Shown: positions 21,239 through 62,455 of the stretch, piece after piece | How the letters are laid out: each line of letters begins with the position of its first letter | Numbering within the stretch: the first letter of the stretch is position 1 | Assembly (NCBI GenBank): GCA_021234155.1 | Contig: JAJEKV010000051.1 | Coordinates: forward strand, 8,018,105 to 8,082,104 | Direction: 5' to 3' | From: Isoetes taiwanensis | Taxonomy: Eukaryota > Streptophyta > Lycopodiopsida > Isoetales > Isoetaceae | DNA: 64,000 nt | Program-made: the position numbers and the translations under genes | Notes under the pieces: generated by a model | What the model saw: the letters and a program-made list of their open reading frames with translations, nothing else | What the model was told of the DNA's origin: nothing | Databases searched by the model: none

Positions 21239-21630
21239 TGTTTAATATTTTTGTATATTTGGAAGTAGTGAAAGTTTAAAACTTAGTTATAAAATTGTGA
21301 GGGCTTAAATTTAAGGGGATTATTTATATATTGAGCAGTTTGTTTGATGTTGGTGTCGCTTTGTATGTGTAGGGTACGGATTCGAGAATAAGGTTTCGTG
21401 AGTAGTCTTTGGGCGTGATGTGCGGTGGAAGGTGGCATTATTTACATTGGTTGGTAAGGTCATGGTATTTTTGGATTGTCATGAGGAAGGTTGTCTGGTG
21501 AGTTTCTTTGGTGTGTTAAACATTCTAGGATTTGGGTAGCGAGGTAGTAGGTTGGATATTTGTGTGTGTATGCGTGTTTGAAAAAATTTGGAGTGTGAGG
21601 TTGTAATGCGAAGGTCTAGAGTACAGATTG

Positions 21631-22262: not shown

Positions 22263-22610
22263 TTGCTGACACCACGGTTGAGTTTAAGAGTGGCGAGAAT
22301 AGATATTTCTGCTTGATTTTTTAAGTTCAAAGATGAAAGCAACGGACTAAGAAGACGTGTAATTCACTAGCGGATTTATAATTGGGCAAAGATGTGAGAT
22401 GGGATTAAGATCGAAAGTGTATGAGTGATGAATATACACTCCATACGTTTGGAGACCTTGCTTTGCAAAAACATGGCCTTTCTATCATTGTAAAGGAGCA
22501 AACCTCAATGCTTGGTCATAGTTTTGTAGCTACTTGATGAGATCATATAGATTTTGGCATAAAACCTAACGGTTCGTATGTGCGATGGTTCTTGAAGTAT
22601 ATAAAATTAT

Positions 22611-25373: not shown

Positions 25374-25430
25374 ACTAGGATGAGATCGCTCGCTCATTTT
25401 AGGGGGCACTTTAGATATATACAAACAGGA
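25349..25430. repeat. 25 bp inverted repeat closing the array
   Basis: CCTGTTTGTTGTATCTAAAG-TGCCC at 25,349-25,373 pairs with GGGCACTTTAGATATATACA-AACAGG at 25,405-25,430 with one 1-2 bp bulge. The ~31 bp spacer carries TGAGATCG-CTCGCTCA. It sits exactly where the third tandem unit stops, so it may mark a recombination or rearrangement point. Confidence 0.85.
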
Positions 25431-25879
25431 TAATTGAAAAGGGAGTAAGCCTGGAGCGTGACCCTCTTGAATGGTTGTCAACTCACCAGGCTTGATATTG
25501 TTCGCGGCAAACAATATAGACTTCTCGAACCCATTAGGTATGTAGAGCACGTGCCACCCAAAGGAATGGAGTATAGAGTATACAATCCTGATGGCATTCA
25601 AATGCTGATTTGGCGTACCGGAGATACGCCTCACCTATCCAGTGGTTGGGAGGATGTGGATCATGTACTTTTCAAACCTTTTGATGGATCAGATCCGTCC
25701 CAGTTGGTCCATGGCTGTTTGGCCCCTTGGCATGCATAGATTACTTCTCATCAACAAGATTCTGTGGCATGCAAAGAGGTAAGCAGCAACGGAAGTCGAG
25801 ACGGGTCTGATCCGAGGAGAGTTCTGAAGGCACTACGGTTGACGGAGATAATGGAACACGGTGAACGGAAGGGGTAATC

Positions 25880-40566: not shown

Positions 40567-41156
40567 TGTTGGATTAATAAAAAAAACAATTCCTTGCAAG
40601 GATGTAAGCTCGACACAATGATTTACTTGTACTTTCAATCTAGCAATATTAAATCAATAAAACATCTTCAAGTACAAAAGCATCTAGTATCAAGAAAGCC
40701 AAGTTATGGTCATTCATTCCTTGATATGCTCAAAATCATTTCATCACTTTTACTCTAAGCAATGAGTACTTCCTAAGCTCAAACTATAGATCATCATCAT
40801 CGAGAGCTCCACACACCTCAAACCCGGCACCCCATTCCTATGTATCTCTTGCACGACGGTTACGGCTAGATCTCAGTGACTCAGAATAGAAACCTCATCT
40901 ACAGCTTATATCCCACATGCCAACAAAAGGAATATAGCGTTTTCATCAAGCACATAAGGCACATAAAGCACTTAAAGCACATAAAGCACTTATATGCATA
41001 AAGCACTCAGTTGTATACGAATCTTCAACTGTAAGACCATTACAACCCATCGCCACTTTGCTTCTCATAGGTTGATCTTGAAAGTAAAAATATATTCACT
41101 GCCACTGCTTCTCATGAATATAAGATGCATATAATATAACCTGATACACACTAACA
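40567..41156 (-). repeat. 3' LTR of the copia element
   Basis: On the element strand it starts TGTTAGTGTGTATCAGG and ends ...AACA. Near its centre the words GCACATAAAGCACTTAAAGC form a short tandem stretch. Compared with the 5' copy I see changes mainly around CATCGCCACTTTGCTTC versus CACTGCCACTGCTTC and one C. Confidence 0.97.
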
Positions 41157-41165
41157 TCCTCCTTC
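41157..41165 (-). promoter_or_regulatory. Polypurine tract of the copia element
   Basis: The element strand reads GAAGGAGGA directly before the TGTTAG start of the 3' LTR, the normal site for plus-strand DNA priming. Confidence 0.8.
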
Positions 41166-41274
41166 ATGTTATACTTATATGCATTATTTTCCCTTTTAGA
41201 TAGCTAAATCTTGTCTCAGCTAGAGATTTTGTAAGCAAATCTGCTAACCGATCTTGATCTGATATATACCATAT

Positions 41275-43252
41275 TTACAAGGTCTTTTCTAATGACCTCC
41301 CGATAAAGTGCATTTCAAGTTCTATATGTTTAGTCCTCTCATGTAGAATTTGGATTCTTTGATAAAGCAATGCGGCTTGTACTATCACACCAAATGTTGG
41401 TAGCCAATGATTGTTCAAATCGGTTCTATGATTAACCTTCTCTCCCAAATAATTTCCTTTGAGCATAAAGTAGCAGCAGCATATTCTGCCTCAGCACTGG
41501 ACATAGCTATGGCAGTTTGTTTTTTGCATTTCCAAGATATAGGGGCTCCTCCCAGCATGACAAGATATCCTGAAGTTGACTTCCTTGTATCTATATCTCC
41601 TCCCCAATCCGCATCACAAAACCCTTCTAATTCCAAGTTATTAGTTTTGTATGCAACTCCTTCTTCAGCAGTACCTTTTAAATATCTTAAAACTCGTTTT
41701 GCTGCAGTCCAATGTTCTCTGCCAGGATTAGTGTTGTACCTGCTTAACATGTTAACACTATGTGCAATATCAGGCCTTGTGCAATTGGCCACATATGCTA
41801 AACATCCAACCAGGGATCTGTAAGGTACTGACTCCATATCTTTTCTCTCACCTTCATTTTGTGGACACATACTTTCAGTCAACTTACACCCAGGTACAGC
41901 AGGAGTTTTACATACTTTGCAGTCTTGCATGTTAAATCTTTTCAACATGTCATATATTTGTTTCTTTTGGGTGAGCATTACTATACCCTCTGCCCTATTT
42001 CTGGCCATTTCAACACCAAGAAAATTTTTCAACTCTCCTAAGTCAGTCATTTCAAATCTTTGTCTTAGCAAATCTTTACACATATTCAAGCAGGTTGTTC
42101 CTTTAGCCACCATTATATTGTCATCAACATATAAGGCTAAGACACACCATTCTTCTCCATCTTGAAACTTGTAAAGATTACCATCATTATCTAATTTAAT
42201 AAATTTTTGCTCTCTTAAAAAGCTGTCCATGCACTTGTACCATTCTCGGGGGACTGTTTCAAACCATACACTTTGCTCTCCGAGCTTCCAAACTTTGTTA
42301 GTTCCTGCTCAAATCACGGGGCCTGCTTCATAAATATTTCTTCTTCTAAAGTTGCATTCAAAAATGCGGTCTTAACATCCATATGATGTACTTCTAAATC
42401 ACATGCATTTGCAATTGCCGATTAACATTCTCACACTATTCATTTTGACTAATGGAGAAAAAGTTTCATCAAAATCCCGGCCTTTTTTTGTGAGAATCCT
42501 TGTGCCACCGGTCTAGCCTTGTATCTAGGTGTCTTTCCATCCACACTGTTTTAATTACGAATAGCCACTTGTTTCCAACAATATTCTTTCCACAAGGAAT
42601 ATCAACAAGTTCATATGTGTTAGTATTGTGAAAAGAATCCATTTCCTCATTCATAGCATTTATCCATTTATCCTTATCTCGCTGAATTTAATACATCCTC
42701 ATATGTACTTGGAATATTTGGATCTAGATGAGTCGGGATCTCAAAAAAATACTATCCAGCTCTCCTTCTATATCTTGAAGTCTTTTACTCTTACCTCGAG
42801 TTGTTCTACCATGAATTGATGGATCAACCTTGATATTTGCTTGCCGCAACCTTTCTACTTTGATTGATTTTTTTTTCTCGATGGTATGACAGCACTGGTT
42901 GATGACTCTGATGGCTCAGCTGAAACACCTTGATTTTGGACTTGTGTTTCTTCTGAGTCACCTACTTCTTCATTGGTGTTCTCCTCAATTTCTGCATTTA
43001 TATTCTTAAGGTCATCACGGAGCATCATCATCATAATCAACCACTTTAGTACTTGACCTATTATTTTCAAAGATTATCAACATTCGTTATGTTCTCAATA
43101 ACTTCCTTTTGCTTGTTTTCCTTTATCAGAACTTTATACACTTGTGTTTCATCAAATGTAACATCCCTACTCACCACTACTCCTCTTGTGCTTGGATTAT
43201 ATAATCTGTAGGCTTTGGATTGTTTATCATACCCAACAAGGTAGGTAATCAT
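41275..43252 (-). pseudogene. Copia reverse transcriptase and RNase H, broken
   Basis: From 43,252: YLVGYDKQSKAYRLYNPSTR and VVSRDVTFDE (integrase C-terminal linker). At about 42,650-42,470 TNTYELVDIPCGKNIVGNKW begins RT with frame breaks. A 271-codon frame (42,230-41,415) then holds LALYVDDNIMVAKG (catalytic YVDD intact), FLGVEM, PYRSLVGCLAYVANCTRPDI, CDADWGGDIDTRKSTSGYL and KQTAIAMSSAEAEYAA (RNase H). The final block LHERTKHIELEMHFI lies in another frame at 41,275-41,466. The first RT third is degraded and stops recur, so it cannot make a full polyprotein as read. Confidence 0.93.
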
Positions 43253-43389
43253 GGCCTGTCATCCAGTTTCCTCCTCGGTTCTTTCCGGAATGTGTGTGTA
43301 GGCCAAGCATCCATACAATCTTAGCCTACTATAATCCGGTGTCTTCCCCGACCAAAGCATATCGGGAATTGCACCTTGTATGCTCACCG

Positions 43390-44356
43390 AAGGTAGGCTA
43401 TTTTGAATCATGGCAGCGGCTTATGCGGCCTCTTCCCATAGGAAATTTGGAAGCCACGAAAATTTCAACATACTTCTACTGACATTAAGCAAGGTTCTGT
43501 TCTTTCTTTTGCAATCCCATTCGTTGAGGCGTGTATCCGCAAGTAAGTTGTCTTTTATTCCTTTCATTTTGCAATATTGTTTAAATTCCCCTGACAAAAA
43601 TTCTCCACCTCTGTCAGACCTCAAGCATTTGATCTTCCTGCCAGTTTGAGTCTCAACTTCATTTACATATTGTTTGAACACTTCCATTGCCTTATGTTTT
43701 GTTCTCAAACAATAAATGTGAGTATGTCTACTAAAATCATCAATCAGGGTCATGAAATATCTTTTTCCAGATAAGCCTGTTACATTCATAGGTCCACATA
43801 AATCAGTATGTACAAGATCTAATAACCCTTGTGCCTTTTTGTTGGACCTTTTGAAAGCTAATCTACTATGTTTGCCAAGAGCACATCCAGGACATACAGT
43901 TTTTCCAGTTTCATTCAAGTCTGCTTCAATAAATCCTTTTTTGCATAAAAGCTCAATAGTTTTTGAATTTACATGACCAAGTCTTCCATGCCATGTATCA
44001 ACTGATGGCATGGTTATAAGATTAAGACAAGCTGGTTCACAATGTATAGCTTCAAGTCCAAATAGATTTCCAATCCTTTTTCCAATAAACTTCACTTTAT
44101 TTCCAAGTAACACATTACATTGCAATCTCTCAAACACAACCTTATAACCAAGGTCTACCAATTGAGCAATAGAAATTAAGTTTCTAACAAGTCCAGGTAC
44201 ACACAAAACTTTTCTTAACACTACCTTCTTTCCTTGCAAATCAAATAACTCGAGCATCCCACTATCTTTAATTTGCTTGAGTTCTCCATTCCCAAACCCG
44301 AACATGTCACCGGCTTCACCCTTACAATTTTTCAATAGCCTTGAGCTGGACGCCAT
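43390..44356 (-). pseudogene. Copia protease end and integrase
   Basis: A 311-codon frame starts within protease (LRKVLCVPGLVRNLISIAQL). It passes through WHGRLGHVNSKTIELL and CPGCALGK (zinc module), then TDLCGPM with the first Asp, DDFSRHTHIY, and RSDRGGEFLS with the second Asp. The Glu block reads RLNEWDCKRKNRTLLNVSRS where ...NGVVERKNRT is expected, so the catalytic Glu segment is damaged. It ends FLWEEAA-stop; the next codons continue the family in the same frame, so this is a nonsense change. Confidence 0.93.
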
Positions 44357-45438
44357 CTGATTTTTCAGCTCCTGAATCTAAAATGAGAACACCCTTGTCA
44401 TGACATTTTTCCTTTGAAAAATAATTATTTGAGATGTTTACCTCAATATCTTCATCCAGCTCTTCCTCCTCGGATTCTTTAACCATATTTAAGCTTGGAC
44501 TGTTTCTTCCTCCTCTGTTTTTATTCTCAGAATATTTCTTATCTTGTGCTTTATTTCTTTTTGGACTAGGGCACTTATTTGCCATATGACCCTTCCCTTC
44601 ACAATTATAGCATACTATTTCTCTGTCTATCTTAGGACAGTTTCTCTTCAAATGTCCATAACTGTTACATTTAAAAGCAGGGGACCTAACTTTTCTTTAT
44701 CAAATAATTTCTTACCTCTTTTGCCGGCATATAGAATTTACGCTTCATCATCATCGCATCCTTCCCTTGCTCAAACTCGCACGAATCATTTTGATAGCAT
44801 GCTCCTTTGACACGGCAACATTTCTTAAAAGAGTAGCAAGTTGTGAGTTATGAGATCTGACTCTAGAAATGGCAGCAATTGGTAATCTTCATTCAAGACA
44901 ACTCCCGCACCCTCAAGGTCAGCAATAATAGACTCAAACTTCTCAAGAAATTCAGTGATGTTGTCTTTTTCATAAAGTTTTAATCTTCTCAAACTGTTTT
45001 TCCAAAGACATCAATTTGAGAGGATGATTTAACCTCAAAGTTATCAATCATATACTTCCACATGTCTGCTGGAGATTTACCTCTTAATTTTAACTTTATC
45101 ACAGTTCCAACCTTGTTACTAATTATTGATTGTGCTTCCATAATTTTCGTTTTCTCTTCTGCACTTGTCCCTCTAGTACTTGTACTACCAGTTCCTCTTA
45201 CATCTGCAGTTTCAGTTTGTGCACCACCACCTGCAACAGAACTAGCACTGGCACTACCACTAGCTGCTCCAGCACTTCCACTACTTGCTCCAGTACCAGC
45301 AGTATTTGAATCACACAAGTACCATAAGTTCTCAAACTCCAATACTTCCTTTATTCCTTGCTTCCATAACTGGAATCCGCTATCTCCCTTAAACACCTCT
45401 ATGGAATTAAGGAGATTAGCTCCAAACCGTGTTGACAT
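44330..45438 (-). pseudogene. Copia gag, zinc knuckle and protease start
   Basis: Gag starts at 45,438 (MSTRFGANLLNSIEVFKGDS, then FQLWKQGIKEVLE), with a serine/alanine/glycine-rich spacer and LRGKSPADMWKYMIDNFE. It breaks at 44,989. The zinc knuckle CYNCEGKGHMANKC at 44,612-44,571 is intact. Protease begins VLILDSGAEKSD, where the usual SGASDHM is altered and followed by a frame change at about 44,335. The start codon lies ~20 nt downstream of the primer site, as expected. Confidence 0.92.
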
Positions 45439-45458
45439 CCTGCAGTTGGAATTTTATG

Positions 45459-45470
45459 GCTCTGATACCA
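45459..45470 (-). promoter_or_regulatory. Primer-binding site, initiator tRNA-Met
   Basis: The element strand reads TGGTATCAGAGC one base inside the 5' LTR, complementary to the 3' end of plant initiator tRNA-Met, the usual copia primer. Confidence 0.95.
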
Positions 45471-45471
45471 A

Positions 45472-46060
45472 TGTTGGATTAATAAAAAAAACAATTCCTT
45501 GCAAGGATGTAAGCTCGACACAATGATTTACTTGTACTTTCAATCTAGCAATATTAAATCAATAAAACATCTTCAAGTACAAAAGCATCTAGTATCAAGA
45601 AAGCCAAGTTATGGTCATTCATTCCTTGATATGCTCAAAATCATTTCATCACTTTTACTCTAAGCAATGAGTACTTCCTAAGCTCAAACTATAGATCATC
45701 ATCATCGAGAGCTCCACACACCTCAAACCCGGCACCCCATTCCTATGTATCTCTTGCACGACGGTTACGGCTAGATCTCAGTGACTCAGAATAGAAACCT
45801 CATCTACAGCTTATATCCCACATGCCAACAAAAGGAATATAGCGTTTTCATCAAGCACATAAGGCACATAAAGCACTTAAAGCACATAAAGCACTTATAT
45901 GCATAAAGCACTCAGTTGTATACGAATCTTCAACCTGTAAGACCATTACAACCCACTGCCACTGCTTCTCATAGGTTGATCTTGAAAGTAAAAATATATT
46001 CACTGCCACTGCTTCTCATGAATATAAGATGCATATAATATAACCTGATACACACTAACA
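45472..46060 (-). repeat. 5' LTR of the copia element
   Basis: 589 bp, almost identical to 40,567-41,156. It begins TGTTAGTG and ends AACA on the element strand and is followed on the outside by TTTTT. Confidence 0.97.
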
Positions 46061-46065
46061 TTTTT

Positions 46066-48762: not shown

Positions 48763-49284
48763 AAAATATTTGGTTTCAGTAACATTTGGCAAGAAAAGAC
48801 TTGCCAAATCTCAATGTTTATGATCCCTAGTCCTATTTATTTTAATAATCAAAGCCCTTTCCCTGTATTTCACGTGATTCTTTCCATCTCTGTGTTTCTT
48901 TGCATTTCCTATCTAAGCCTTTGGCAGCCTTGTAATTTAGTTTGCAGCCTTCAGATCATAGCAAGAATCATGCCAGGATCGGCGGTCAGACCTTCAGCCT
49001 CGGCAAGACTTAATTGGTCTTTTGGTCTTCTTTTCCATTGTAATGCATGTTGCCTTAGTAAATCAATTTAGGGCATATCAGTTTCTGATCTTTAGCCCGA
49101 TTAGATTCCATGTTAAGAATGAGGTAGTGGTGACTGCTATAAGTAGTGGTGATTTCAAATCAATGTGGTGAATTAACCTATGGAGACCTTATAATCCGAT
49201 ATTGGTATAATTGGTTTATTTGCTAGTTATATGATGTTTGGGCTCGATTGTTGTTTTGTGGCTATCTATGGTCGATGGATGTGC

Positions 49285-50744
49285 CAAAACATTCTGGGGG
49301 ATGCAAAGTTATGGCTACTTCCCGAGTCTATCAGGACTATGAAGGACTTGGCCTTGGCCTTCCCTACTGTGGAAATTACCTTGTACTGGCTCTCTGCTTG
49401 CTCTGTGTCTATTGCGGCAAAGATATGACACTCACCCTGGAAGTAGTCGCGGGCTGCCTCGCCGTCGTCGTCAGACATAATGTCCCAATCTCCCAACTCC
49501 GCTAGTGCCGCACTCATGACGTAAGGGCAGTTCGCTGTCCTCCTATGGCCTGGCTGGAAGCACCTGAAGCAAAGCTGCTTTTCTATGCACTCCTGTCTCT
49601 TTTCCTTGGGCATAGCCTGCAAAAAGGATCGCACTGCTTTGGAGTAGTTTGACCCCTCCTGCTTGTCCTTGAAGGACACCTGCTTCTTTTCCTGCTGCTT
49701 CCCCTGGTTGCCACCATATGGGGCTCTAGTTGGGCCTGGGCTGGCTGCCCTAGGGCTATAACTCCCTGTTGCCTTGCCTTTGTCCTGATAATACTGCTGC
49801 CTCTGCCCGCTATTCTGAGGCCCTGTTCCTTGCAAACTTATTGCCTTGGACTCTGCTTCTGATACTGTCTTAGGGTTTATTGCCCTTACAAGCTTGCGGA
49901 TCTCATCATTCAGCCCTTCAATATAGCTTTCCACTGCATGCTTTTCACCCAGCTTTGGCACATAAAGCCTTAGCCTCATGAATTCCTCTGTATATTTCTG
50001 GACTGATTTGTTTCCCTGTTGCAACCTATAGAACTGCTGCATCATGCTGGACTTGTGCTCTCTTGGGACGTAATGGCGCTTGAAGGCTTTAGCAAACTTT
50101 CTGAACCTGCAAGCATCCCTGCTCAAGCCATGGGCCTTTGCATACCCCTTCCACCAAATGCGTGCTGCTCCTTTCAGGTTGGCTGTTGCCACCCTGCCTT
50201 TATCCTTGTCCTTCATACCATAAGCGTTGCCATATTCACTCATCTCATCGAGCCAAGCCTCTGCCTCCATGCCTGACCTGTTCTCGCCTGAGAATTGCTC
50301 GAGCTTCCTGGCCTTCCAAACATTTCCCAATGCAGAGTCTACCTTCTTCTGGTAATTAGAGGTTCTTGTGTCCTTTTGTCGTCCATCTGTGGTATCCCTC
50401 TGCCTTCCATCTGCAGTGTTCCTCTGCCTTCCATCTGTTCGGACCTGGGCCTGCTCTTCCTCTTCCTCGGAGTCGGAGTCCGAATCGGAGCTTGAGTCGG
50501 AGGATTTCGAGCTGGAGGACCTCCTTCTCTTGCGCCTCTTCTTGTCCCTTCCTGTTTTCCGAGCTGATGCTTGAGGCAACTGAGCATTGCCCACCGAACC
50601 CACTCCTGCTTGTGCGGCCAGCAAAGCCTTTATCTGCTCAAGGTCTGTTCTCATCTGTGATATTTCCTCTTCTGGGGTCATGGGTCCAAATTCCTCAAAC
50701 AGGTTCCTTGCCGGGGGTGGCCTGGGCGGACTCTGTTCTTCCAT
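49285..50744 (-). pseudogene. Ty3 gag and start of protease, truncated
   Basis: The likely start is the Met at 50,744 (MEEQSPPRPPPARNLFEEFG); in-frame text upstream follows a CAG|C that could be a splice acceptor. An acidic/serine stretch (SSSKSSDSSSDSDSDSEEEE) precedes the Retrotrans_gag domain (EAEAWLDEMSEYGNAYG, GAARIWWKGYAKAHG, FKRHYVPREHKSSMMQQFYR, SVQKYTEEFMRL). The zinc knuckle CFRCFQPGHRRTANC is intact. Protease begins FIVLIDSGSSHNFASPRM with its active-site DSG, then similarity stops at about 49,295 and the frame ends 7 codons later. The ~485-codon frame has no internal stop, so the loss is a clean break, not decay. Confidence 0.92.
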
Positions 50745-50962
50745 GTTGTCTCGGCGTTGTCGTTCCCCTGAGCCTAGGCCTCTAGCTGCATACACAAGTA
50801 ATTCATGGCTATATGGTTAGTTTTACTTGTTCTCTTGCATTATATGTGGTTTGTTGGCATAGTTGTGGAACAAAATACATCAACAAAACATTTAAGGTGC
50901 AAAAGAAATTATATTTATATTATATAATATTTTAGTACAAAATCTCCGGGATCAAGAGTCTA

Positions 50963-52485
50963 TTAATCTTGAAATCGCCGGTAAGATGGGTTGTCCTCAA
51001 GGAACTTCTTAACTTGGGCCGTTCCTATCGAGCTTCCCAAGTTCCTAAGGACATTGGTCGACGTCCCGCCCTGCAAGGCCGTCACCAACTCTTCCACCCT
51101 GCGGTCGGAGGTGTAGGCCGCGGTTACTGCCAATCTTCCCTGCCGTCGGTAGGGCACGGCGAAGTCAAAGAGGTCAAGTGCCATTGCTCTCTTCACTAGG
51201 ACAGCATAGTCGACATTTGCCGCTATTCGAGCATGCCTGCCGAAGCCTGAGAGTGCAATAAGCATGAACACTCCTTCTTCACCTCGTGGGCTGAATTTGC
51301 GGTGTATTACCGCTATTCTCCCATCCAGAGCAGGGGCAGGTAGTACCTCAGCAACCTGTCGTTGTGTGTCGCAGATGATTCTCCACTTGTTTGGCCTCCC
51401 GCTCTATGCCGTCCAGCGTAGTCGTCGACCTCTATCTCAGTCAGCTCTCGGTAGTCTGCAATTGTGGAGTCGACTCGCCTGATGTCGATTCCTGCTCCTC
51501 TTGCTGGAGGTGGTGTCGAGGGGCTCGGCATCAAGATGCTGGTGGTCTTGCCTCTGATCCCCATTCGTTCCTGAATGGCGAGGAACTCTTCTTCCGATGG
51601 CAGGTCTCCGGCCTCCATAACCTGTCTTATGTTGCTGTAGGCCTGTATATCAGACGTCGACTCCCCTGTGTAGGTGTCGGCTTCTCGCACTTGAAGCGGG
51701 AAGTCTGAGGCTCCCCGGACGATGAAGTCGTCCATTTCTGGTTGCCGTAGTTGGTGCAGCAACTCATCAAGTCTGAGCTCCCTCTCCCTGCATTCAGGGA
51801 GGTTCTGGATGTCACTGAGGAGTAAATACTCCTCTCCGTTGATGATGATGGGGGCTAGGCTTGTGATGCCTAGCCCGAGTGGGGGAGCAATTCTGAGGGT
51901 CTGCCGGCTCCGCTCCATGTTGGCCAGCTCCTCTTCTGCTTGGCGCCGTTCTTCGTCTGAGTTGAGCTCCGTGTACTCTTCGTCGTCCGACTCCTCTTCT
52001 TCTTCTCTTCCTTCTTGCTCCTGCTGGTACTGCAAAAGCATCCGCTCTGCTGCTTGGGCTGCTATGGGGTCCACCTCCATCGGAGGGATAGAGGTTGCCC
52101 CCATTGGGTTTTCGGCGCGGTGGGATAGGAAAATAGCTAGGGCGGCGGTGTAGGAGAAATACTTGGTCCTGTCAACTGTCAGGACCATGTAGTCTGGCAG
52201 CCTCTGCGCCTTGTTAGTCAAGTACTTGGCGATGTTGGGGACATCACCCAAGGCTGCTTGAAGGGATGGGCGGGGAACAAAGTAGCCTATGCAAGGGGGG
52301 AGCTGAACTAGGGAGGGTCCTACCCTAGCTTGGAACTCTGCTAGAACTTGTCTATATGCTAGGGTTGCATTTAGAGTGGCTTGGACATCTATTTCTTTCC
52401 CAAAGACTCGGAAGATGTCATTGACATCCGCCTCGGCAGCATGGGCACTGGCGCTGTACCATCGCCTGAAGTCAGCAGTGGCCAT
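50963..52485 (-). CDS. Leader gene 2: unknown ~500-residue protein in the Ty3 leader
   Basis: The first frame (52,485-51,313, 390 codons) starts MATADFRRWYSASAHAAEAD. It has a folded-looking N-terminal half (LAYRQVLAEFQARVGPSLVQ, VPNIAKYLTNKAQRLPDYMV, FSYTAALAIFLSHRAENPMG), an acidic middle (EGREEEEESDDEEYTELNSD) and a variable C-terminal part. A second frame, offset by -1, continues from about 51,320 to 50,963 (HRKFSPRGEEGVFMLIALSG, RIAANVDYAVLVKRAMALDL, FLEDNPSYRRFQD). The two look like one protein split near a CCCC run. A TATA box lies ~115 bp upstream. I recognise no family; a capsid or nucleoprotein-like role is only a guess. Confidence 0.6.
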
Positions 52486-52598: not shown

Positions 52599-52608
52599 CT
52601 ATTTATAG
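52599..52608 (-). promoter_or_regulatory. TATA box of leader gene 2
   Basis: CTATAAATAG on the minus strand, about 115 bp before the ATG at 52,485. It is followed by ATCCCCCATTTC, nearly the same context as the TATA box of the H3-like gene. Confidence 0.65.
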
Positions 52609-52798
52609 AAAAGGGAAAAACCCTAATTTTTGGATAACCTAGAATTTACTGGGATTGGGTGATTCTGATCTATTAAGAGGTGCAATTGAGAGTTTGAAGA
52701 CTACTTTTAGGGTTTGAGCATGCTAAGATGGACTAATGAACCTATTGCAAGAAACTGGAGATGATTTGGATATGGCATGGTGAAGAAAATGCTGAGAG

Positions 52799-52865
52799 GT
52801 CTCACACGTTGCGCCCAGACCGATAATGAAAAGTTCATTTTCTGCCCTGGCGCGACGTGTGAGAC
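52799..52865. repeat. 67 bp palindromic element, copy d
   Basis: Arms GTCTCACACGTTGCGCC and GGCGCGACGTGTGAGAC pair with one mismatch (a U-G wobble in RNA). The loop contains the inner inverted pair ATGAA-AAG-TTCAT. It lies ~190 bp upstream of the TATA box of leader gene 2. Confidence 0.93.
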
Positions 52866-53000
52866 ATGGGCTCTAAATGGGTTAAACTTGATCAATTTGG
52901 GTAATCTAAGGGTGTAATTCTACTGGACTTATCGAGATAGGCAGAATTGACCCCTTATTTGGTCGATTTGGAGCTGTTTTGGGCATTTTTGGGTACCATG

Positions 53001-53049
53001 GTCTCACACGTGAGATTCTCATTTTCTGTCCTGGCGCGACGTGTGAGAC
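53001..53049. repeat. Palindromic element, shortened copy c
   Basis: GTCTCACACG...CGCGACGTGTGAGAC with an 18 bp internal loss compared with copies a and d. It lies between the end of the H3-like gene and copy d. Confidence 0.9.
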
Positions 53050-53193
53050 ATCGTCTCAATTTTGCTCAAAAACTCCAATTTGATCAAAACAAAAGCTAGA
53101 ATTCAATATTTTAACCTAGTTAAGCAAGATTGGACACATTATTTACACAAAAATTCTTTATATTAACAAAATTTTTCATTATTTACAAAAAGT

Positions 53194-54365
53194 TCAAGGG
53201 CGTTCTCCCTTGATGTGTCTAGCCAGATGCATATCCTGTCTCATGAGTGTGACCCTCTTCGCGTGAACTGTGCAGGCCGTCGAATCTTCAAAGTGCTGCA
53301 CCAGTTTTTGCTCTGCTGCCTCCTGTAAGCACAGCAACATTTCGTCGGTCACCCGCATGTCTGTGTTATATTTCTGCATAACCTCTCGGACCAAGCGTTG
53401 AAACGGTGCCCGGGGGTTCAAGAGTCCGTAACTTCGCTGGAAGTGCCGGATTTCCTTGAGGGCTCTCTGCTCCTTCTGCTTGCTGTTGGTCCGCTTCTTT
53501 CCTGGTGCTCTGGGAGGCTTGGGCCTGGGTGGCGACGGCTTCAGGGTCTGGCTTTTTGTCGGGCGTCCGCCTTCTTCGGATAGACCTTGACGGGGTCTAT
53601 CACGTACGCCTCCCGTTGTGGCCGTGGGGCTTTGACCCTATCCCACGTCGGGAATGGTGGGGGCTTCGGCGCCTGCCCGGGCTGCTCCTGCTCAGGTGCC
53701 ACCTGCTCGGGTACTTCCTTCTCCACGACCGGGGGTTTCGAAGAGCTTGCCCCCCCAGTGTTGGGGATGTAATCTTCGTCCGAGTCGTCGGTAGAAGGCG
53801 GGGTCTGCTCGCCTGATGGCTCATTGATGACGGGACCCTGCGCTCGCCTACCAACCTTCACAACTGTTCTCTTGCCCGCCTTAATGCCTTTGGCCCTCTT
53901 CCTCTTCGGCTCGCCGGCTGTGGTTGGCTCGTCCTCCCGTCTTTTTGTCCTCCTCTCTCGGCGGCGCTCTTTGGCTTCATACTTGCTGATGAACGCCGCG
54001 AGGTCTTCTTCTTCAGCAGGGCTAAGCTTCGGCTGCCGCTGCTCCTCTCTCTCTTCAGCTTCCTGCAGACGGGCCCAAGCTTCGAGTTGTTCCTCGACGG
54101 TTGGCTGTCCTTTCTGCTCCCGTTCCTCCTTGCTCCTCCTTTCCTCCTCGGCGATTTCTTCGAGGATCTGGTGCATGACATCCAGCTGCTCCTCCCCTAT
54201 GACCTCTGTTCTGTCGCTTTGGTCCGAGTGTGCCTCCTCACTGGATGAAGATTCGCCTTGCCGAAAAAGGCGTTCTTGAAGTATCCTCTGTATCAGGGCG
54301 GGGTCACTAGCGCTGGAAGATTCGCCTCGGCGGGGCTTCCTAGCAGTCTGCTTTGTCCGGGTCAT
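53194..54365 (-). CDS. Histone H3-like protein with long acidic/basic insert, carried in a Ty3 leader
   Basis: The start at 54,365 is chosen because a TATA box lies ~100 bp upstream; the in-frame Met at 54,518 would precede transcription. The N-terminus MTRTKQTARKPRRG mimics the H3 tail (ARTKQTARKSTGG), keeping the K4, R8 and K9 equivalents. Then come ~270 residues rich in Glu/Arg coiled-coil text, a basic PKRKRAKG nuclear signal and proline stretches. The C-terminal ~85 residues are an H3 fold: ALKEIRHFQRSYGLLNPRAP, FQRLVREVMQKYNTDMR, LQEAAEQKLVQHFED and CTVHAKRVTLMRQDMHLAR-IKGER. Loop 1 has canonical H3 length, not the longer CENH3 one. Tail and fold are in frames offset by -1, changing near an AAAAA run at about 53,557. 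That is a real lesion, a programmed shift or a base error. Confidence 0.8.
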
Positions 54366-54465: not shown

Positions 54466-54475
54466 CTATTTATAG
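54466..54475 (-). promoter_or_regulatory. TATA box of the H3-like gene
   Basis: CCCCTATAAATAG on the minus strand, ~100 bp before ATG 54,365. A CCCCCATTTCC word follows, shared with the promoter of leader gene 2. Confidence 0.65.
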
Positions 54476-54551: not shown

Positions 54552-54567
54552 GTCTCACACGTTGCGC
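54552..54567. repeat. Palindromic element copy b, left part (split by hAT)
   Basis: GTCTCACACGTTGCGC, the left arm of the 67 bp palindrome. Its remainder continues at 58,360-58,418 on the far side of the hAT element. The last eight bases, CGTTGCGC, are the duplicated target. Confidence 0.95.
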
Positions 54568-54650
54568 CATAGTTACCCGGAACGGGAACTTTTTGGGAAC
54601 TTTGACCCAAAATCCGGAACGGGAACGGGAACGGATGGGAACGGGAACGA
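54568..54650. repeat. hAT left TIR and subterminal GGGAAC repeats
   Basis: After the ~16 bp TIR the word GGGAAC (or CGGAACGGGAAC) recurs about six times within 80 bp. The right end (58,190-58,359) has a denser set of GGGAAC and GTTCCC in both orientations, including AACTAGTTCCGGAAC twice. Such clusters are typical binding sites for hAT transposases. Confidence 0.9.
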
Positions 54651-54994
54651 CCAACATTCAAATTTTTCATTTTTGAAAATGGATTTGAAGTTCCCTTTGC
54701 TTAAAGAACATCTTAGAACACTTAGAATTAAAAAATGTTTCAAGGGGAGTGAGTTGCAAGCCTAAACATCTATAGCTACTCCGTAACAATAATATTAGAA
54801 CTTTAAACAACATTTTCCCATTTAGAACGTATTTTTTTAAGTTAACATATTGTCATTTATCAAAACATACAAGTTGAAATATTTATAAAGCATAAAGAAC
54901 ATAAGTCACATAATATAATAAGTTCTTATAATTTCAAACCTTCTATTTTCATGGCCTTCATCAACCTGCAAAGTAAAATTAAATATGTTTTAAA

Positions 54995-57148
54995 TCACAT
55001 AATAGCTAGAAAGTAGGAAATAGTACATATGTGAAATAAAAAAAGAATATTACCTTCATTTTGTTCCCCTAAACCCTCATCCTCTTCATCCACTGAATCT
55101 TCTGCATTTGCATGACTTGTGTCTTCTCCATTTTCATTCCCATCTTCCACTATAGGTGGAATAGTTTCTTCTCGGTGCAGCCCAATAAATCTTTCACTTG
55201 CATTATCCAACATCGAGGAAAGCTCAATTAAGCGCATATTTGCAGCAACAAACGCTAAGTCATTGGTTTTTTGAGTGCCAAGACGATTTCTCTTCTTCGT
55301 TGCAATGTCTCCCATGGTGCTAAACAACCTCTCCATGGAAGATGAGCTGCAAGATTGTGACAATATCTTAATGGCCAGTTTTTGCAAGTTATTCTTTTCT
55401 GCCCCATTCTCTTCCCACCACAATGTGGCATTCACATGAAAGCGATCCTTCTTAGCATCTCTTGTTCCAAACATCCCTTCGCCTACCCTATACTTAGACC
55501 ATGCAGAACGTACATCTCTTCTTATATCCTCATCAGGAACTAATTTTTCAAGCATTTGATTCCATCCAATCATGACAAGCCTTTCACTTTCTTGATCTTG
55601 CCCTTGGAATTCAGGGTCAAGTATATAAGCGGCCGCATGAATAGGTGAATGATATTCCATCCATCTATCATTAATAAACCCCACCAACTCTGAGCGTATA
55701 TAATCATCATGCTCAACATTCTTCACGTGCGCAATCAAGGAATGCATACCCTCAAATATCTTGCCAATGCAAGGAAAAGGGCCATCCACAAGTCTAAGCA
55801 TCAAAATTATTGGCTTTACAAGAGCTAAAATATGAGCAACATCTTCCCAAAAACTCTCATCAAATAAAATATCAAAGCACAATTTGCTTGCCTTTGTACG
55901 AGACTCCTTAAGATTCTTGAAACTTGGACTCACAAACAATTGTTGCAAAGGTGTCAAAAGCTCATGAAGGCGTTCCAACATAATGAAATTGTAGCCAAAC
56001 CTAGTATCTGAATACTTCAAAAGCTTCTTATAAGAATACGTTTGCAATGAAGCGCTTACCTTGGAATGGTTCTTCACAAAAGTTACAACCTTGTTCCCTT
56101 TCTCACATTTGCAATGTGAGGTAGCTTTGTAAAATCCTTCAGCAAGTTATTAATGCAATGTGCCATACAAGGTGAGAAGATAATGTGAGGAAACTCTGCC
56201 ATAATCATCTTGCCTGCGGAACGGTTAGCTTGCTCACCATCTCCAACAATTTGAATAACATTTTCAGCACCAACTTCTGCCCCTGCAACACGCAATAACT
56301 CCATGTATATGCCTCCCTTGAGTGTCGGACCAGCCATCAACAATCAATGAGACACCCCATTTTACCCAATGCCCACGCAATGTGTCAAGAGTCATTGTTA
56401 CCTCTTTCTTCTCCCTTGCTACCAAAGATACTCTCAAATCTTCATACTTAGGGAGTTCCATATTTGGACCACATTTCCCTGCTTCTGCCATCATGTATTT
56501 GAAGTGATTATCTCTAATAACATTGAAAGGAATCTTATTGTGGATAAAGTGCCTTGCAATGGACCGCCAGAATCTATCTTTTCTTTCTGGATCAAGACTA
56601 TCCTGAATATTCTTTTGTCTCTTTCTTGCTGCTGGTGGTGAGAAATAGCTTTCTAGATTTGAAGTGCATCCTCCGCCAGATGAACCGGACATAAAGTTTG
56701 TAGGTGGAAGTGTAGGTGTAGAAGCCATAGGACTCACCAGGGCTGCTGCACATCTTGCAGCATTCAGCCTACTATTCTTGCTTGCCGTAATGCCATCTAA
56801 AATTCTAGAAAAGTTTTGAAGGCGCTCCTTAGTACCATCATCAATTGCGGTGCAATCCCTTGATCCTGTCCCTTCTCCAGTCAAATGTTTTTTCACTCTG
56901 TCAGTTCCTCCAGTTGTTTCATATGAACAATACCTGCAACGCCACTTCCTAGCACCACCACTAGTAGGAGGAGGACCAACCAAAATAACTTCGTCCCACC
57001 ATTGTGAAGGATTGGGCCCTTTTTTTCGGGCTTTTGCTCTCTTAGGAAGTACGGATGATGCAATTTCCTCACTCTCCTCATCGGGTTGTGGAGCATAATT
57101 CACATCACGGTCTTGATCATCCATATTTGATTGATTGATTGATTGCAC
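54995..57148 (-). pseudogene. hAT transposase, nearly complete but frame-broken
   Basis: From 57,148: BED zinc finger (WRCRYCSYETTGGTDRVKKH, then a distal Cys), a linker with SNLESYFSPP, and the start of the DUF659/RNase H-like domain (GVSLIVDGWSDTQGR). Here ~25-30 residues of the domain appear lost and the frame changes (about 56,330). The next frame gives VIQIVGDGEQANRSAGK and PCMAHCINNLLKDF. A further frame change near 56,085 leads to the last 360 codons, which end with the hAT dimerisation region: LAIKILSQSCSSSSMERLFS and KTNDLAFVAANMRL. The first Asp (VDGWSD) and second-Asp region (GDGEQAN, usually TDNAAN) are visible; the second is altered. Confidence 0.93.
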
Positions 57149-57689
57149 CTAAAACAAGAACAATAGAAGAATGCTTAATACAATAGACAAACAATAGATA
57201 AATAGAAGCAAGAACGTAGCAAAAAAAAAGAAATATACGAAGCTATAACTTACTTGGAACTTGGAAGCGCTGAAGTTCTGATCAAGAGCTTTAATATTTC
57301 TTCTCTATTTCCGCCTTATTCTAGCAGCCTGAATCAAAAGCAAGCAATATAAGAATTAGCAAGAGCAAATGGGCAGTCATTTTCTGCCAAATAGGAACAA
57401 ATTCATTGAATGCCCCTGTTGGCAGCACATCATGATGAAAGCAATGAAAAAAAGCTGCTCTAACATAACCACCAGGTTCTTTATTAACAGTTTTTTTTGC
57501 TTAATCAAAGCTTTTTAACTGTCAAGACCTTCTGACTGTTAAAATACTGCAAGATCTAAGCTAGTAGTAGAAGAAAAAATAATCTCATGCAAGGATTCAT
57601 GATATAATGCAGACAACCAAACATAGAAAACAGTAATAAAAACATGGTTCAATCAAAAACTTACTGTTCTGGTGGTCCTGAGTCTGGCA

Positions 57690-57995
57690 TGAGAGCAGCT
57701 CAGCAGGTAGAAGAGTCGGCAGCAGAGTGGGTAGAAAAGTTGGAGCTGGAAGCTTCTGTGCAAGATGAACAGGCTGATCGATGCAAATGAAAAGAAATGA
57801 AAATGCAAATGCAAGATGAATGCACAGGCTGATCGATGCAAATGAAATGCAAATGCAAATGAAATGAAAATGCAAATGAAATGAAAATGCAAACCTTTTT
57901 GAGTGATAAGAGTCGGTAGCAGAGCAGCTCAGCAGGTAGAAGAGTCGGCAGCAGAGCAGTGAGGTAGAAGAGCAGACAGGAGAGTCGGCAACAGA
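57690..57995. repeat. AATGCAAATG microsatellite flanked by a duplicated GCAGCTCAGCAGGTAGAAGA unit
   Basis: Inside the hAT element upstream of its transposase. AGCAGCTCAGCAGGTAGAAG-AGTCGGCAGCAGAG occurs at about 57,694 and 57,923. Between the copies, GCACAGGCTGATCGATGCAA is duplicated and followed by a run of AAATGAAATG/CAAATG words to 57,890. Confidence 0.85.
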
Positions 57996-58359
57996 GCCTC
58001 TCCTATGATCGATCCTCTCCTATGATCGATCCTCTTCTTTGACAGACTGGCAGACAGTCTTCTCTTCTTTGACGGGCAGACTGGCAGAGGCGGGAACGAA
58101 GAACAGTAGCAGCAAGCAACGTAGAAAAACCAAAAAAAAGGAATTTTGTTATTGACTTTCTTGAATTATTCGAAACAATTGGGGGTTAACAATTTCTTTA
58201 CCGGGAACTTGGTTCCCAGAAAATGGGAACTAGTTCCGGAACTTAGTTCCCGGTAACAGGCCAAATGGGAACATCCCCAAGAGTTCCCGGAACGTCCGAC
58301 CCCCGGGAACTAGTTCCGGAACGGGAACGAAGTTCGGAACTTAGTTCCCGGTAACTATG

Positions 58360-58418
58360 CGTTGCGCCCAGCCCGATAATGAAAAGTTCATTTTCTGTCC
58401 TGGCGCGACGTGTGAGAC
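58360..58418. repeat. Palindromic element copy b, right part
   Basis: Starts with the duplicated CGTTGCGC and continues CCAGCCCGATAATG to GGCGCGACGTGTGAGAC. Together with 54,552-54,567 it makes one full element. Confidence 0.95.
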
Positions 58419-58553
58419 ATGGTGGGTCCCGCTGCTAAATTTTATACTTTCTAAGCATATAACATGCTAATTCTACTACTTCTTAGCTCAAATTTAGAAT
58501 TATCATGTTATTTTTCTGTGATTTATAACTTTTTAGTGTGTTTTAAGCTGAAT

Positions 58554-58620
58554 GTCTCACACGTTGCGCCCAGCCCGAAAATGAGATTCTCATTATCTGT
58601 CCTGGCGCGACGTGTGAGAC
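58554..58620. repeat. 67 bp palindromic element, copy a
   Basis: Arms GTCTCACACGTTGCGCC and GGCGCGACGTGTGAGAC with loop CAGCCCGAAAATGAGATTCT... . It lies ~190 bp from the primer-binding site, the first copy in the leader. Confidence 0.93.
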
Positions 58621-58812
58621 CACCCTACTTTTTGAAGGTTGGCTCACCAATTTTAGTCTTTTTATGTTTTCATTCATTTTAACTGGTTACTAGCTTAGCA
58701 TAACTACAAAAATGAGAAAAAAAAATTCCCATTTTTCGAGGCTTAAAGATCTTATCAAGTTAGTACTACTGGGAGCATGGCCAGTGCTTTGCTCTTGGTC
58801 TCCAAGAACATT

Positions 58813-58824
58813 GCTCTGATACCA
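58813..58824 (-). promoter_or_regulatory. Primer-binding site of the Ty3 element, initiator tRNA-Met
   Basis: TGGTATCAGAGC on the minus strand, one base from the LTR end. It primes minus-strand synthesis of the element whose leader and gag lie at lower coordinates. Confidence 0.93.
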
Positions 58825-58825
58825 C

Positions 58826-60495
58826 TGTGACGTCCCCTACTCATATACGGTGCACCCACCGTATACAAACAGGAGTTCATCCCCCATACCAGCTCCATAC
58901 TGATACAGGGCCCTCCACAATCACTGCACCCGTAAAGAGTCCCAGTGGGAAGAGTGAAGGGGTCATTTCACTCCGTCTCCCTCGGGGCCTACCTAGCTGC
59001 GGAAGCGTAAACATACATGTCAGTATACAACATAAACACATATCCACCTCGAAGGGTGGGGCATCAACATCTGCATAGACAACGATCAACATCATACATA
59101 GGGTCCTACCCAAGGCTCAGACTCGAAGGGATGACTGACGGCTTGGGTCTCCATAGTTCATTGCAGACAGAATTCATGGCAATGGATTTGGCTGGCATAA
59201 GAACATGACCTAGGGTTGTCCACTCCATCCGCCCCTCCTGTGCACACTTTGCAGAGTAGGCTGAAAAGTGTTGGGACCTGACTGTAGCCCGCCGGGTGCA
59301 TAGCCAAAGGGGCTATTCCTGGGTTGCATCTCCCCAGTCCCGATGGGGCAGGTAGGGATCTCCCCCTCCAGAGATCTACATGCTGACTCGAGGAGACTAG
59401 AGGGCCACTGCCCTTCTTCGACTTGAACCCACTGGAGAGTGACGCATCACCCCACGGGTGTCGAGCCCATGCCTTGCCCACACTCAGTGGTAAGCCATTA
59501 GACCTAGTCCCAATGATCCCCGGTAGACATTACACACCAGAGGGATCGTTCAAGAGTCAGAACACGAACCTCTTTATAAGCCAGTCTGGCCCCTTCACCC
59601 ACAACCCGGTGTGGCTCTTGTGCACAGGCCGCATCTATAGTGTGCTAGAGAGGCTAATCTAGGAGCATCTACTACCAAGCTTTAGGTCTCTTCCCCCCTT
59701 CCCAATACACGGAGTTCATAGAGATACATCAACCATATACATCACAGAAGAACTAAAGAACTAGACCTAATCTATATCATAGATTTAGGTTCTTTAGTTA
59801 GAGTCTGGTATCTAGAGATCTAGAGGGCTGCTATGGGCAATTTAATAGGCTAAACCTACTGATTCGAAGACTAGAAGATGGTTTAGGCTATTAAATTGAC
59901 CTAAATACCCGATCCTTGAGTTCCTCCTCGACTGAGCTCAACCATCACGCCAAACCGCTTTCGAATCGAGGGAAACTAATGGGGCAATTCGCCGCAGGGC
60001 CAGTGCTGGGGGGCGGTTTTGACCCACAGGGCGATCAAAACAGAGCTCTAAAATCCTAGAAACGAAAAATGGGCAAGTTAGGGTTTCCTTTCTTAAATAG
60101 ACAAGGGGGTTGGCTAGGGTTTCCAATTATCCCCCTTAGGCATGTGGGATAATTGCGAATGGGCCCACTTGCCTTTAATGGCTAGGTGGCAAAATGTGCC
60201 CACATGGAAAGGTGTGCACCTTAATAAATGTGCACATTGGTAAATGTGCACATTAATTGCACACTTGGGTATGGCCCACTTGGCATAAAGTGTCCACATG
60301 GGAAAATGTGCATCTAGATAAATGTGCACATGGTTAAATGTGCACATTAATAAATGCACACTCCTTGCAAGTTGCCCCCCTAGGGGCTACCCGCCTGGCT
60401 ACACATCGGCGTACACGTCAGTCGGGGTGGCGTGTACGCGTGACGGGGCAGTATAGTATACGTCCTGGGACCGTATACTGTGCTGGAACGTCACA
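58826..60495 (-). repeat. 1,670 bp Ty3 LTR shared by pol and gag halves
   Basis: Starts TGTGACGTTCC after the purine tract and ends GGGGACGTCACA before the primer site; TGTGACGT/ACGTCACA form a perfect terminal inverted repeat. Internal inverted repeats include TATACGGTG-CACC-CACCGTATA near the 3' end and AGTATACG...CCGTATACT near the 5' end. The ORFs inside are not convincing. No second LTR is present in the window. Confidence 0.92.
60180..60365. repeat. TGTGCAC tandem motif within the LTR
   Basis: AAATGTGCACATTAATAAAT-like words recur about eight times (AATGTGCCCACATGG, GTGTGCACCTTAATAAATG and others). The palindrome TGTGCACA lies at the core. The position corresponds to U3, where such repeats can act as enhancer-like sites; that role is inferred. 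Confidence 0.85.
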
Positions 60496-60848: not shown

Positions 60849-62455
60849 CTATTGGCCTGAGCCAATTTCTTCGGAGATGACCTTGCCGTCCCATTGCTCC
60901 ATAAACTGTGGGTACTGCTTTAATAGATCCTTCTTGAGTACCCATGTCGCGTCTTCCACTGGCAAGTGTTTCCACTTGACCAAGTATTGGAGAAACTCTG
61001 ATCTCCTTGTTTTCTTGAAGGCTTTATCAAGAATTAATTCTGGAACTATTTCCAGCTGCTCCTCCGTCATTTCCAACAACGTTGGAGTGTCTAAGACTTC
61101 GTCTGGATTTGGAGTGTGCTTCTTCAACAAACTCACGTGGAAGACCTTATGAATCTTTAGGTGTGCTGGCAAGTCTAGCTTGTAGGATTGACTACCTACT
61201 TTCTGGACTATTCTGAAAGGTCCAGCCCACCTTGGAGCAAGCTTCTTGCAATTCCCGATTGTGAGCTTCGCCTGCTTTACCTTGATCTTCAACCAAACAT
61301 AGTCTTCAACTTGGAACTCTCTAACTGTTTGATGCTTGTCGGCGATGCTCTTTTGTCGACTCCTTGCCGCTAGGAGATATCCTCGAACTTGCTGCATATC
61401 AGCCAACATCTGCTGCGAAACTTCTACTTTTGACACGGGATTGTGCCAAGTGTCTGGAGTTAGGCATTGATAGTCGTAATTGATCATAAACGGCGACATT
61501 TGGGACGATTCCTGCTTGGTGCTATTATATGCAAACTCCACCAAGTGAATAAATTCTTCCCACATACCTTGCTTATTCCAGACATAGTTTCGTAGCATGT
61601 CCTCCAAAATTCTGTTGGTCCGCTCCGTTTGGCCATCCGTCTGAGGATGATACGCCGTGCTCATTGATAGCTTCGTCTGAATGGTCGCAAAGAGGTCTTG
61701 CCAAAAGGCACTCATAAACTTCGGATCCCTGTCGGAGATAATCTCCCTTGGCATGCCATGAAGCCTGAAGATCTCTTTGGTGAAGAGCTTTGCTGTATCC
61801 ATAGTCGTATCTGTGGTCCTGCAAGGCACAAAATGTGCCATCTTCGACAACTTGTCGACCACTACCATCAAGGCATCTTTCCCTCTTACCGTAGCCCTGT
61901 TATAAAATCCATGCTAATGACCTCCCACTTAGCGTTTGGCACCGCTAATGGCTCCAAGGCTCCTGGGATTCGAAGCTGCTCTGCTTTGGTCTGCTGACAC
62001 AGCTGGCATTCCCGAATGTATCTAGCTATCTGTTTCTTCATTCCTGGCCAGAAATAGCTGCTTCGAATCTTGAAATAGGTCTTCATAAAACCCGCATGCT
62101 CGGCTATTGGACTGTTGTGCGTGTCATGAAGAATTAGCTTCCTTACCCCTGATGATTCGGGCACGCACAACTTATGCTTATGATACAACAGGTTGCCTTC
62201 CTTCTTATAATGCTTGAAGGCTTCCCGTTCTTTATCTGTTCTAGCCTTCCTAGAGAGGCTTTCCCATGCTTCCTTGAATTCCGTGTCTGTTGGCAGAGAT
62301 TCTTCAATCTTCTTCCCAAAGTCGTTGGAGAGCGTCGAAATTGCATTGCAATGCACTCTAGTTGTCAGGGGATGCCTTGAAAGCGCATCTGCTACCACAT
62401 TGAGCTTCCCTGGCTTGTAGACTATATCAAAGTCATACTCTTCCAGGAACGCCAT
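60849..62455 (-). pseudogene. Ty3 RNase H end, integrase and chromodomain
   Basis: 62,455-61,886: [20 protein letters not shown] (RNase H end), then the zinc module (HDTHNSPIAEHAGFMKTYFK, CQLCQQTK) and WEVISMDFITGL with the first catalytic Asp. A -1 frame change at about 61,880 leads to a 340-codon frame: VVVDKLSKMAHFVPC, IISDRDPKFMSAFW (second Asp), DGQTERTNRILEDMLR (catalytic Glu). It continues with the GPFRIVQKVGSQSYKLDLP and HKVFHVSLLKK blocks and a chromodomain (FLQYLVKWKHLPVEDATWVL) at about 61,050-60,895. Chromodomains target chromovirus integration to marked chromatin. Only one visible lesion breaks this part. Confidence 0.95.

Follow-up and report, generated by a model that had tools for sequence, protein, structure and literature searches.

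We analysed a 64,000-nucleotide stretch of the Isoetes taiwanensis genome (assembly GCA_021234155.1, contig JAJEKV010000051.1, forward-strand positions 8,018,105 to 8,082,104; hereafter the window), in which an earlier note, made from the sequence alone, had placed a histone H3-like gene in the leader of a Ty3 retrotransposon. The gene, here called ORF1, spans positions 54365-53194, as the note had it, and lies on the minus strand. From the ATG at 54365 a frame of 274 codons, beginning MTRTKQTARKPRRGESSS, stays open to 53541, and its first 10 residues (MTRTKQTARK) are those of canonical H3 with a single change, T for A directly after M. The H3 fold (...RALKEIRHFQRSYGLLNPRAPFQRLVREV...VHAKRVTLMRQDMHLARHIKGERP) ends at a stop at 53194 and is read in a frame different from that of the N-terminal part. 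Against PF00125, the Histone profile of Pfam, the fold scores 100.1 bits, far above the cut-off of 26.4. Among solved structures in the PDB it matches H3.3 (E 4.5e-27) and H3.1 (E 6.2e-27) best, and the 60 best PDB sequences shown are all H3; a chance resemblance is ruled out by these Pfam and PDB profile scores. The H3 fold recognised in the earlier note is therefore real, but the single predicted protein that it described has no continuous open frame in this copy. In the intact relatives L036 and L038, about 27 more residues stand between the N-terminal part and the fold, and both parts are in one frame, which indicates an internal deletion in the window copy. ORF1 of the window copy is broken, with tail and fold in separate frames after that deletion.

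Read in the minus sense, the window copy consists of a long terminal repeat (LTR), a primer-binding site (PBS), palindromes, a hAT transposon, the H3 gene, further palindromes, a second extra open reading frame (ORF X) and gag (Table 1). The PBS and gag thus flank the H3 gene on a shared strand, just where the earlier note had put them; the PBS motif, TGGTATCAGAGC, is one that we take to be of the initiator tRNA-Met type. The hAT transposon, which separates the PBS from the H3 gene, was inserted inside a leader palindrome and is flanked by an 8-bp duplication, CGTTGCGC, at 54560-54567 and 58360-58367. That the H3 gene belongs to the hAT transposon is ruled out on two grounds: the insert with its duplication stops short of the gene, and L036 and L038 hold palindromes, promoter and gene within 1.4 kb and have no hAT.

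The neighbouring copy holds H3 and integrase between two LTRs

Immediately next to the window copy lies a neighbour copy, which we read from 9.5 kb adjoining the window (L041) and for which we give coordinates on the window scale. It is 12,642 bp long (71468-58827) and comprises two LTRs, a PBS (at 69799), H3, ORF X, gag and a chromodomain integrase; gag, ORF X, the H3 fold, the PBS and the LTR all share one strand in L041. Its H3 fold (68079-68453, beyond the window) is 96.8% identical to that of the window copy, and its ORF1 is also broken, in the N-terminal part. A purine-rich stretch and the chromodomain integrase precede the LTR at 60493-58827. The two LTRs of this copy differ by a Kimura two-parameter distance (K2P) of 0.030, which at a substitution rate of 1.3e-8 would correspond to an age of about 1 million years. 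Because all these parts lie between two LTRs, the H3 gene, ORF X, gag and the chromodomain integrase belong to a single 12,642-bp element, and the window copy is a second unit that has an LTR in common with it. The chromodomain Ty3 carrier proposed in the earlier note is borne out, in that H3 and a chromodomain integrase stand within one LTR pair in the neighbour, to which the integrase belongs.

Related copies hold the gene at the same place

The genome surveyed amounts to 1.66 Gb, and in all profile and sequence searches only the best candidates were scored. With the Pfam Histone profile, the best 150 of 8705 first-look candidates were scored; eight of the best 15 matches were read, and all are ordinary 136-residue host H3 genes (L001-L008), presumably plant-like. 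Twenty loci with their flanks (L009-L028) were taken from the remaining 135 scored matches. There is no ordinary H3 gene among them: 19 carry a fold that we assign to family A and one (L026) a fold of family C. The window copy belongs to a further family, B, for which a search with the fold gave at least 150 matches from the best 150 of 10191 candidates, each with at least 85% identity, and a search with the ORF1 N-terminal part at least 169 matches from the best 141 of 7902. Complete family A frames (L012, L016, L022) have about 450 residues, start with MPRFKLTVDLKK or similar and carry the fold at the end; the fold is 84% identical to host H3 and the N-terminal part is unlike that of B. The Pfam Histone score is 147 bits in the A-type locus L022 and 98 bits in the B-type locus L038. 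Compared with the neighbour copy, L016 and L017 of family A show 67-83% identity in the integrase and 28-63% in gag, depending on the stretch, which makes families A and B related. A chromodomain is also present in A-type L016, and RVT_1 (2.4e-30) follows gag and protease in A-type L020. No H3 relative was confirmed in viral contigs. As a separate observation, L028 has one more match to the H3 fold at 8428-8772, this time on the other strand; it is 35% identical to the fold of the window copy and may be another family or an old copy.

The order within the elements is PBS, H3, ORF X (variable), gag and pol. Among the 20 A/C loci, gag follows downstream on the same strand in 17 (the exceptions are L019, L022 and L028), an exact tRNA-Met PBS stands upstream in 14, and ORF X, at about 22% identity, was recognised after H3 in seven; in L016 and L017, gag begins within about 650 bp of H3 and leaves no room for it. 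ORF X has at least 106 scored matches in the genome, and in many of them a frame of about 529 aa stays open. For 38 of the 106, H3 is matched on the same strand at a distance of 647-787 bp upstream, and for 17 more the N-terminal part alone is matched there; none of the 106 scored matches has either within 3 kb downstream. Likewise, at least 46 of 119 integrase matches have a match to the upstream gene 3-14 kb upstream on the same strand, compared with one on the downstream side and two on the opposite strand; these ORF X and integrase counts are lower bounds, and the integrase set is only partly typed. A unique insertion of a host gene is ruled out, a unique insertion being one of the outcomes that the earlier note had named as refuting its claim, since other copies have the H3 gene at the same place. 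The H3-carrying entity is a Ty3 chromodomain LTR retrotransposon lineage with its own conserved H3 gene.

Selection on the fold

Rates of nonsynonymous and synonymous substitution (dN/dS) were compared pairwise by the Nei-Gojobori method. Across 32 B loci (496 pairs) the fold has a median ratio of 0.05, and across 19 A loci (171 pairs) one of 0.04; for the part that precedes the fold the medians are 0.24 (B, 432 pairs) and 0.18 (A, 153 pairs). The pooled values are 0.08 (B) and 0.06 (A) for the fold, and 0.36 (B) and 0.34 (A) upstream of it. Since a choice of loci by H3 score favours low dN, we took a control sample of 20 B loci that were found by the N-terminal part and are absent, as judged by eye, from the 150 best H3 matches. 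An H3 match is present in the expected stretch in all 20, although two matches cover only 15 and 20 residues, and the ratio has a median of 0.10 and a pooled value of 0.23 (125 usable of 129 pairs). These ratios, all below the value of 1 that the earlier note had set for purifying selection, show strong constraint of this kind on the fold.

The same figures bear on a rival explanation, namely that retrotransposons caught a host H3 sequence that has no function for the element. Transposable elements do capture gene pieces, and many copies of the gene are broken. A mere passenger would nevertheless hardly be expected to keep the same position in divergent families, dN/dS of 0.04-0.10 and, in B, conserved TATA boxes, and we consider this explanation very improbable and already disfavoured.

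The displaced H3 tail of family B

When 33 loci were scanned with a tail pattern, 16 of the 21 recognised rows read MARTKQTARKPR; the rows include the window copy (L029), one place is counted under both L030 and L041, the pattern passes over tails that are strongly changed, and some stretches start past the tail. Across the genome, a degenerate DNA pattern for MARTKQTARKP, which would also accept two serine codons instead of arginine, had matches at 419 places, whereas the reversed pattern, used as a control, had none; with one mismatch allowed, 795 places matched, including ordinary H3 genes, which have serine for proline. At least 32 distinct DNA codings occur among 84 of the 419 matches, and the tail is thus kept at the protein level. 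For the tail residues A1-K9, the pooled dN/dS in 20 B loci is 0.046. In B, ARTKQTARKP opens the protein and stands about 300 charged residues away from the fold, unlike canonical H3, in which ARTKQTARKS lies beside it. Family A does not have the H3 tail start at its N-terminus, and only a tail relic precedes its fold.

Two possible roles of the protein draw on this tail. It could serve as an integration tether, in which the fold docks in nucleosomes, or methyl groups are placed on the displaced tail, and the protein is bound by the chromodomain of the element's integrase, so that new copies would be led to element-marked chromatin. The 419 places with the H3-start pattern, the chromodomain integrase of the B lineage and the roughly 300 charged residues between tail and fold in B all speak for such a role, which we nevertheless hold to be unlikely; family A has a chromodomain (L016) yet no N-terminal tail start. 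Alternatively, the protein could act as a decoy that soaks up writers and readers of H3K4 and H3K9 and blunts silencing without entering nucleosomes. The preservation of the N-terminal H3 start of B at the protein level, despite many synonymous codings, would suit a decoy, but a decoy would not account for the fold being conserved more than any other part (0.05, compared with 0.24 upstream), and family A, again, has no tail start; we rate this role as more doubtful than the tether.

Promoters and palindromes in family B

A TATA box, TATAAATA, lies 109-111 bp ahead of the ORF1 start in all six B loci examined, the window copy included. The same box lies 119-123 bp ahead of the ORF X start in each of the seven B loci in which that start was recognised (10 examined). 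The leaders following the two boxes are alike, as judged by reading. Two palindromes, with arms GTCTCACACGTNGCGCC, stand ahead of each promoter in B. In the five B loci scanned, all four palindrome units are present in L034, L036 and L038, and in L041 minus one recognised arm; L035, the 5' part of which is an LTR piece, has only the second pair. No promoter palindromes were found in the four A loci scanned. As DNA, the palindrome at 58547-58622 has a much more favourable predicted fold than shuffled sequences (z of -8.1). The palindromes, about 67 bp each and arranged in pairs, are a possible operator, insulator or hairpin, and some of the arms contain TGTCTC, which we take to be an auxin-response core.

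Fold residues and origin

Over 90 residues, the fold is 84% identical to host H3 in A (L016) and 57% in B (L038). We compared residues that we take to have roles in DNA contact and in the H3-H3' and H3-H4 surfaces. Family A keeps R49, K56, R63, R69, R72, R83, K115, R116, T118, C110, H113, A114, D123, L126 and R129, the sole change among the residues compared being K64 to R; B keeps R69, R72, R83, K115, R116, T118, C110, H113, A114, D123 and L126. The presumed interface residues are thus largely kept in A and partly in B. Positions 86, 87 and 89 are changed in A and 86-89 in B, a region that presumably steers the choice of chaperone. Taken together, the residue pattern is compatible with a protein that pairs with H4 and enters chromatin, more so in A than in B.

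These residues and the TATA boxes also bear on the proposal that the histone is a condensation factor, packaging the genome or complementary DNA (cDNA) inside virus-like particles, a role also considered for the histones of some DNA viruses. The gene lies upstream of gag, several DNA-contacting residues are kept, and histones of DNA viruses are on record (PMC9145170). The conservation of the presumed H3-H3' and H3-H4 surfaces fits pairing with H4 instead, and no H4 was seen in the element proteins scanned; moreover, TATA boxes ahead of ORF1 suggest a separate mRNA and not a structural protein linked to gag. Condensation therefore appears improbable to us, if somewhat less so than the decoy.

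In an unrooted tree of 23 folds, A and C lie near host H3, and B lies on one side of a branch together with a presumed Arabidopsis CENH3 sequence, the branch having a support of 87/86, below the level that the tool marks with a star. B (L038) has 12 of the 40 residues that separate this CENH3 from host H3, compared with two of 40 in A (L016). Unlike the longer loop of the CENH3 compared, loop 1 of the element folds has the canonical H3 length between its flanking motifs. In a search with the same CENH3, none of the 150 scored matches could be recognised as a host CENH3; the best are ordinary H3 places and, lower down, long element-type frames. A single clade of all element folds is neither rejected nor demonstrated (p-AU 0.076), and one capture with fast change in B or two captures would both fit.

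Other features of the window

The coordinates of the element parts are collected in Table 1. Beyond the break in the protease near 49290, no more element parts were recognised by self-comparison of the window and by reading. The main part of ORF X has no Pfam match, and no relatives of ORF X were confirmed in viral contigs. No RNA family reached its gathering score in the window. The window also contains a separate Copia-type element at 40567-46061, with two LTRs of about 590 bp that are 99% identical and a PBS at 45459, and a repeat array at 21300-25634 with a period of about 920-930 bp and sub-repeats of about 155 bp.

Table 1. Parts of the H3-carrying elements in the window
Feature	Position	Strand	Support or remark
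Gag, then protease up to its break near 49290	49266..50795	-	PF03732 6e-18, PF19259 4.7e-16
ORF X (second extra ORF)	50963..52485	-	52485-51313 open, remainder in another frame in window copy
TATA box of ORF X	52599..52607	-	122 bp before start
Two palindromes (arms GTCTCACACGTNGCGCC / GGCGCNACGTGTGAGAC) ahead of ORF X promoter	52791..53057	-	both arms recognised only in the 52865/52815 unit
H3 fold of ORF1	53194..53571	-	PF00125 E 1.4e-28; PDB H3 E 4.5e-27
N-terminal part of ORF1: MTRTKQTARK, then acidic/basic region	53542..54365	-	274-aa open frame
TATA box TATAAATAG of ORF1	54466..54474	-	109 bp before start codon
hAT transposon, secondary insertion in leader	54568..58359	-	PF05699 (hAT dimerisation) 1.7e-12, PF04937 6.9e-9
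Same two palindromes in leader ahead of ORF1 promoter	58360..58620	-	second split by hAT, other arm at 54568
PBS TGGTATCAGAGC	58813..58824	-	exact motif match
LTR, 5' of window copy and 3' of neighbour copy	58827..60493	-	96.5% identity over 1671 columns to LTR 69814-71468 (L041)
Integrase with chromodomain, neighbour copy	60849..62455	-	PF00385 1.5e-10, PF24626 9.6e-22, PF17921 1.5e-19

Discussion

Silencing of retrotransposons runs through methylation of H3. Against this background, we propose as the leading interpretation, to which we give about an even chance of being correct, that the elements make an H3 variant that pairs with host H4, enters nucleosomes and shapes the chromatin of the element. 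A Ty3 chromodomain lineage would have captured an H3 gene and kept it as ORF1, whose C-terminal fold follows a long extension. If expressed, the ORF1 protein would pair with host H4 and be built into nucleosomes, as an H3 variant that the element itself encodes. Element DNA, be it new cDNA or replicating copies, would then bear nucleosomes whose H3 tail is replaced or displaced, and these may either dampen silencing by the host or label the DNA for use by the machinery of the element. In favour of this interpretation speak the profile scores of the fold, the place of the gene inside the element, the number of copies, the purifying selection, the kept residues and, in B, the conserved TATA boxes.

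Several observations weigh against this interpretation. The loci of the main selection samples (L009-L028 and L029-L061) were selected for their H3 score, and such a choice lowers dN; in the control sample the fold is intact in only six of 20 loci by a strict criterion and broken in 14; many copies are dead. The low pooled ratio of the tail residues A1-K9 comes from loci found by means of a tail pattern, so that tails with strong changes go unseen. In eight A loci, no TATA box was found within 220 bp. Finally, B changes R49, K56, R63, K64, K79, K122 and R129, on account of which a B nucleosome could be unusual or not form, and the long N-terminal extension could itself hinder assembly.

A more far-reaching version of the element-made nucleosome would have the ORF1 histone form element-specific nucleosomes in which the exact A1-K9 tail of B, held on a long arm, is readable by the element's own chromodomain integrase, so that the element would label its own chromatin and recognise itself in a loop; the H3 of B may in addition stem from, or converge on, centromeric H3, separately from A. 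We put this forward as a speculative idea, which we hold to be unlikely.

In its architecture, the element resembles the plant Ty3/gypsy chromoviruses (Metaviridae), with which it shares LTRs, a tRNA-Met PBS, gag with a Ty3 capsid and a chromodomain integrase, but it differs from them in having additional ORFs between the PBS and gag, the first of which encodes an H3 fold and, in B, has its own TATA box. In plant Ty3 elements, extra ORFs are known and mostly have no recognisable domains; the accessible text of Neumann et al. 2019 (PMC6317226), from which this is taken, uses the word histone once, for the target of the chromodomain. Among the Ty3/gypsy elements, those that bear extra ORFs (eORFs), such as Ogre, Tat and Athila, and the AlkB-carrying Gypsy elements of orchids offer the parallel of a captured host-type domain in a separate ORF, the difference being that the domain here is histone H3. 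The accessible part of the report on the orchid Gypsy lineage counts 15 extra domains in 121 angiosperm genomes, with no histone among the nine that it names (PMC9289625). Histones encoded by mobile or viral genomes are otherwise familiar from DNA viruses, namely giant viruses and bracoviruses, and the bracovirus H4 is reported to join host nucleosomes (PMC5423620); here, in contrast, the carrier is an LTR retrotransposon and the H3 fold sits behind a long N-terminal extension. The terms 'retrovir', 'retrotranspos' and 'reverse transcri' are absent from the accessible text of the review of DNA-virus histones (PMC9145170). Term searches of the open-licence PMC literature, in which larger result sets were covered in part, found no retrotransposon-encoded histone. 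Thus, the element class is known, and its histone cargo is new as far as the literature was searched.

The conservation of the H3 gene points to a genomic parasite that may provide some of its chromatin itself. In the element, nature has made an H3 whose tail is displaced and whose modification sites are altered in many places, and a selected, multi-copy H3 of this kind would directly test whether a parasite manipulates the nucleosome itself, beyond reading it with a chromodomain.
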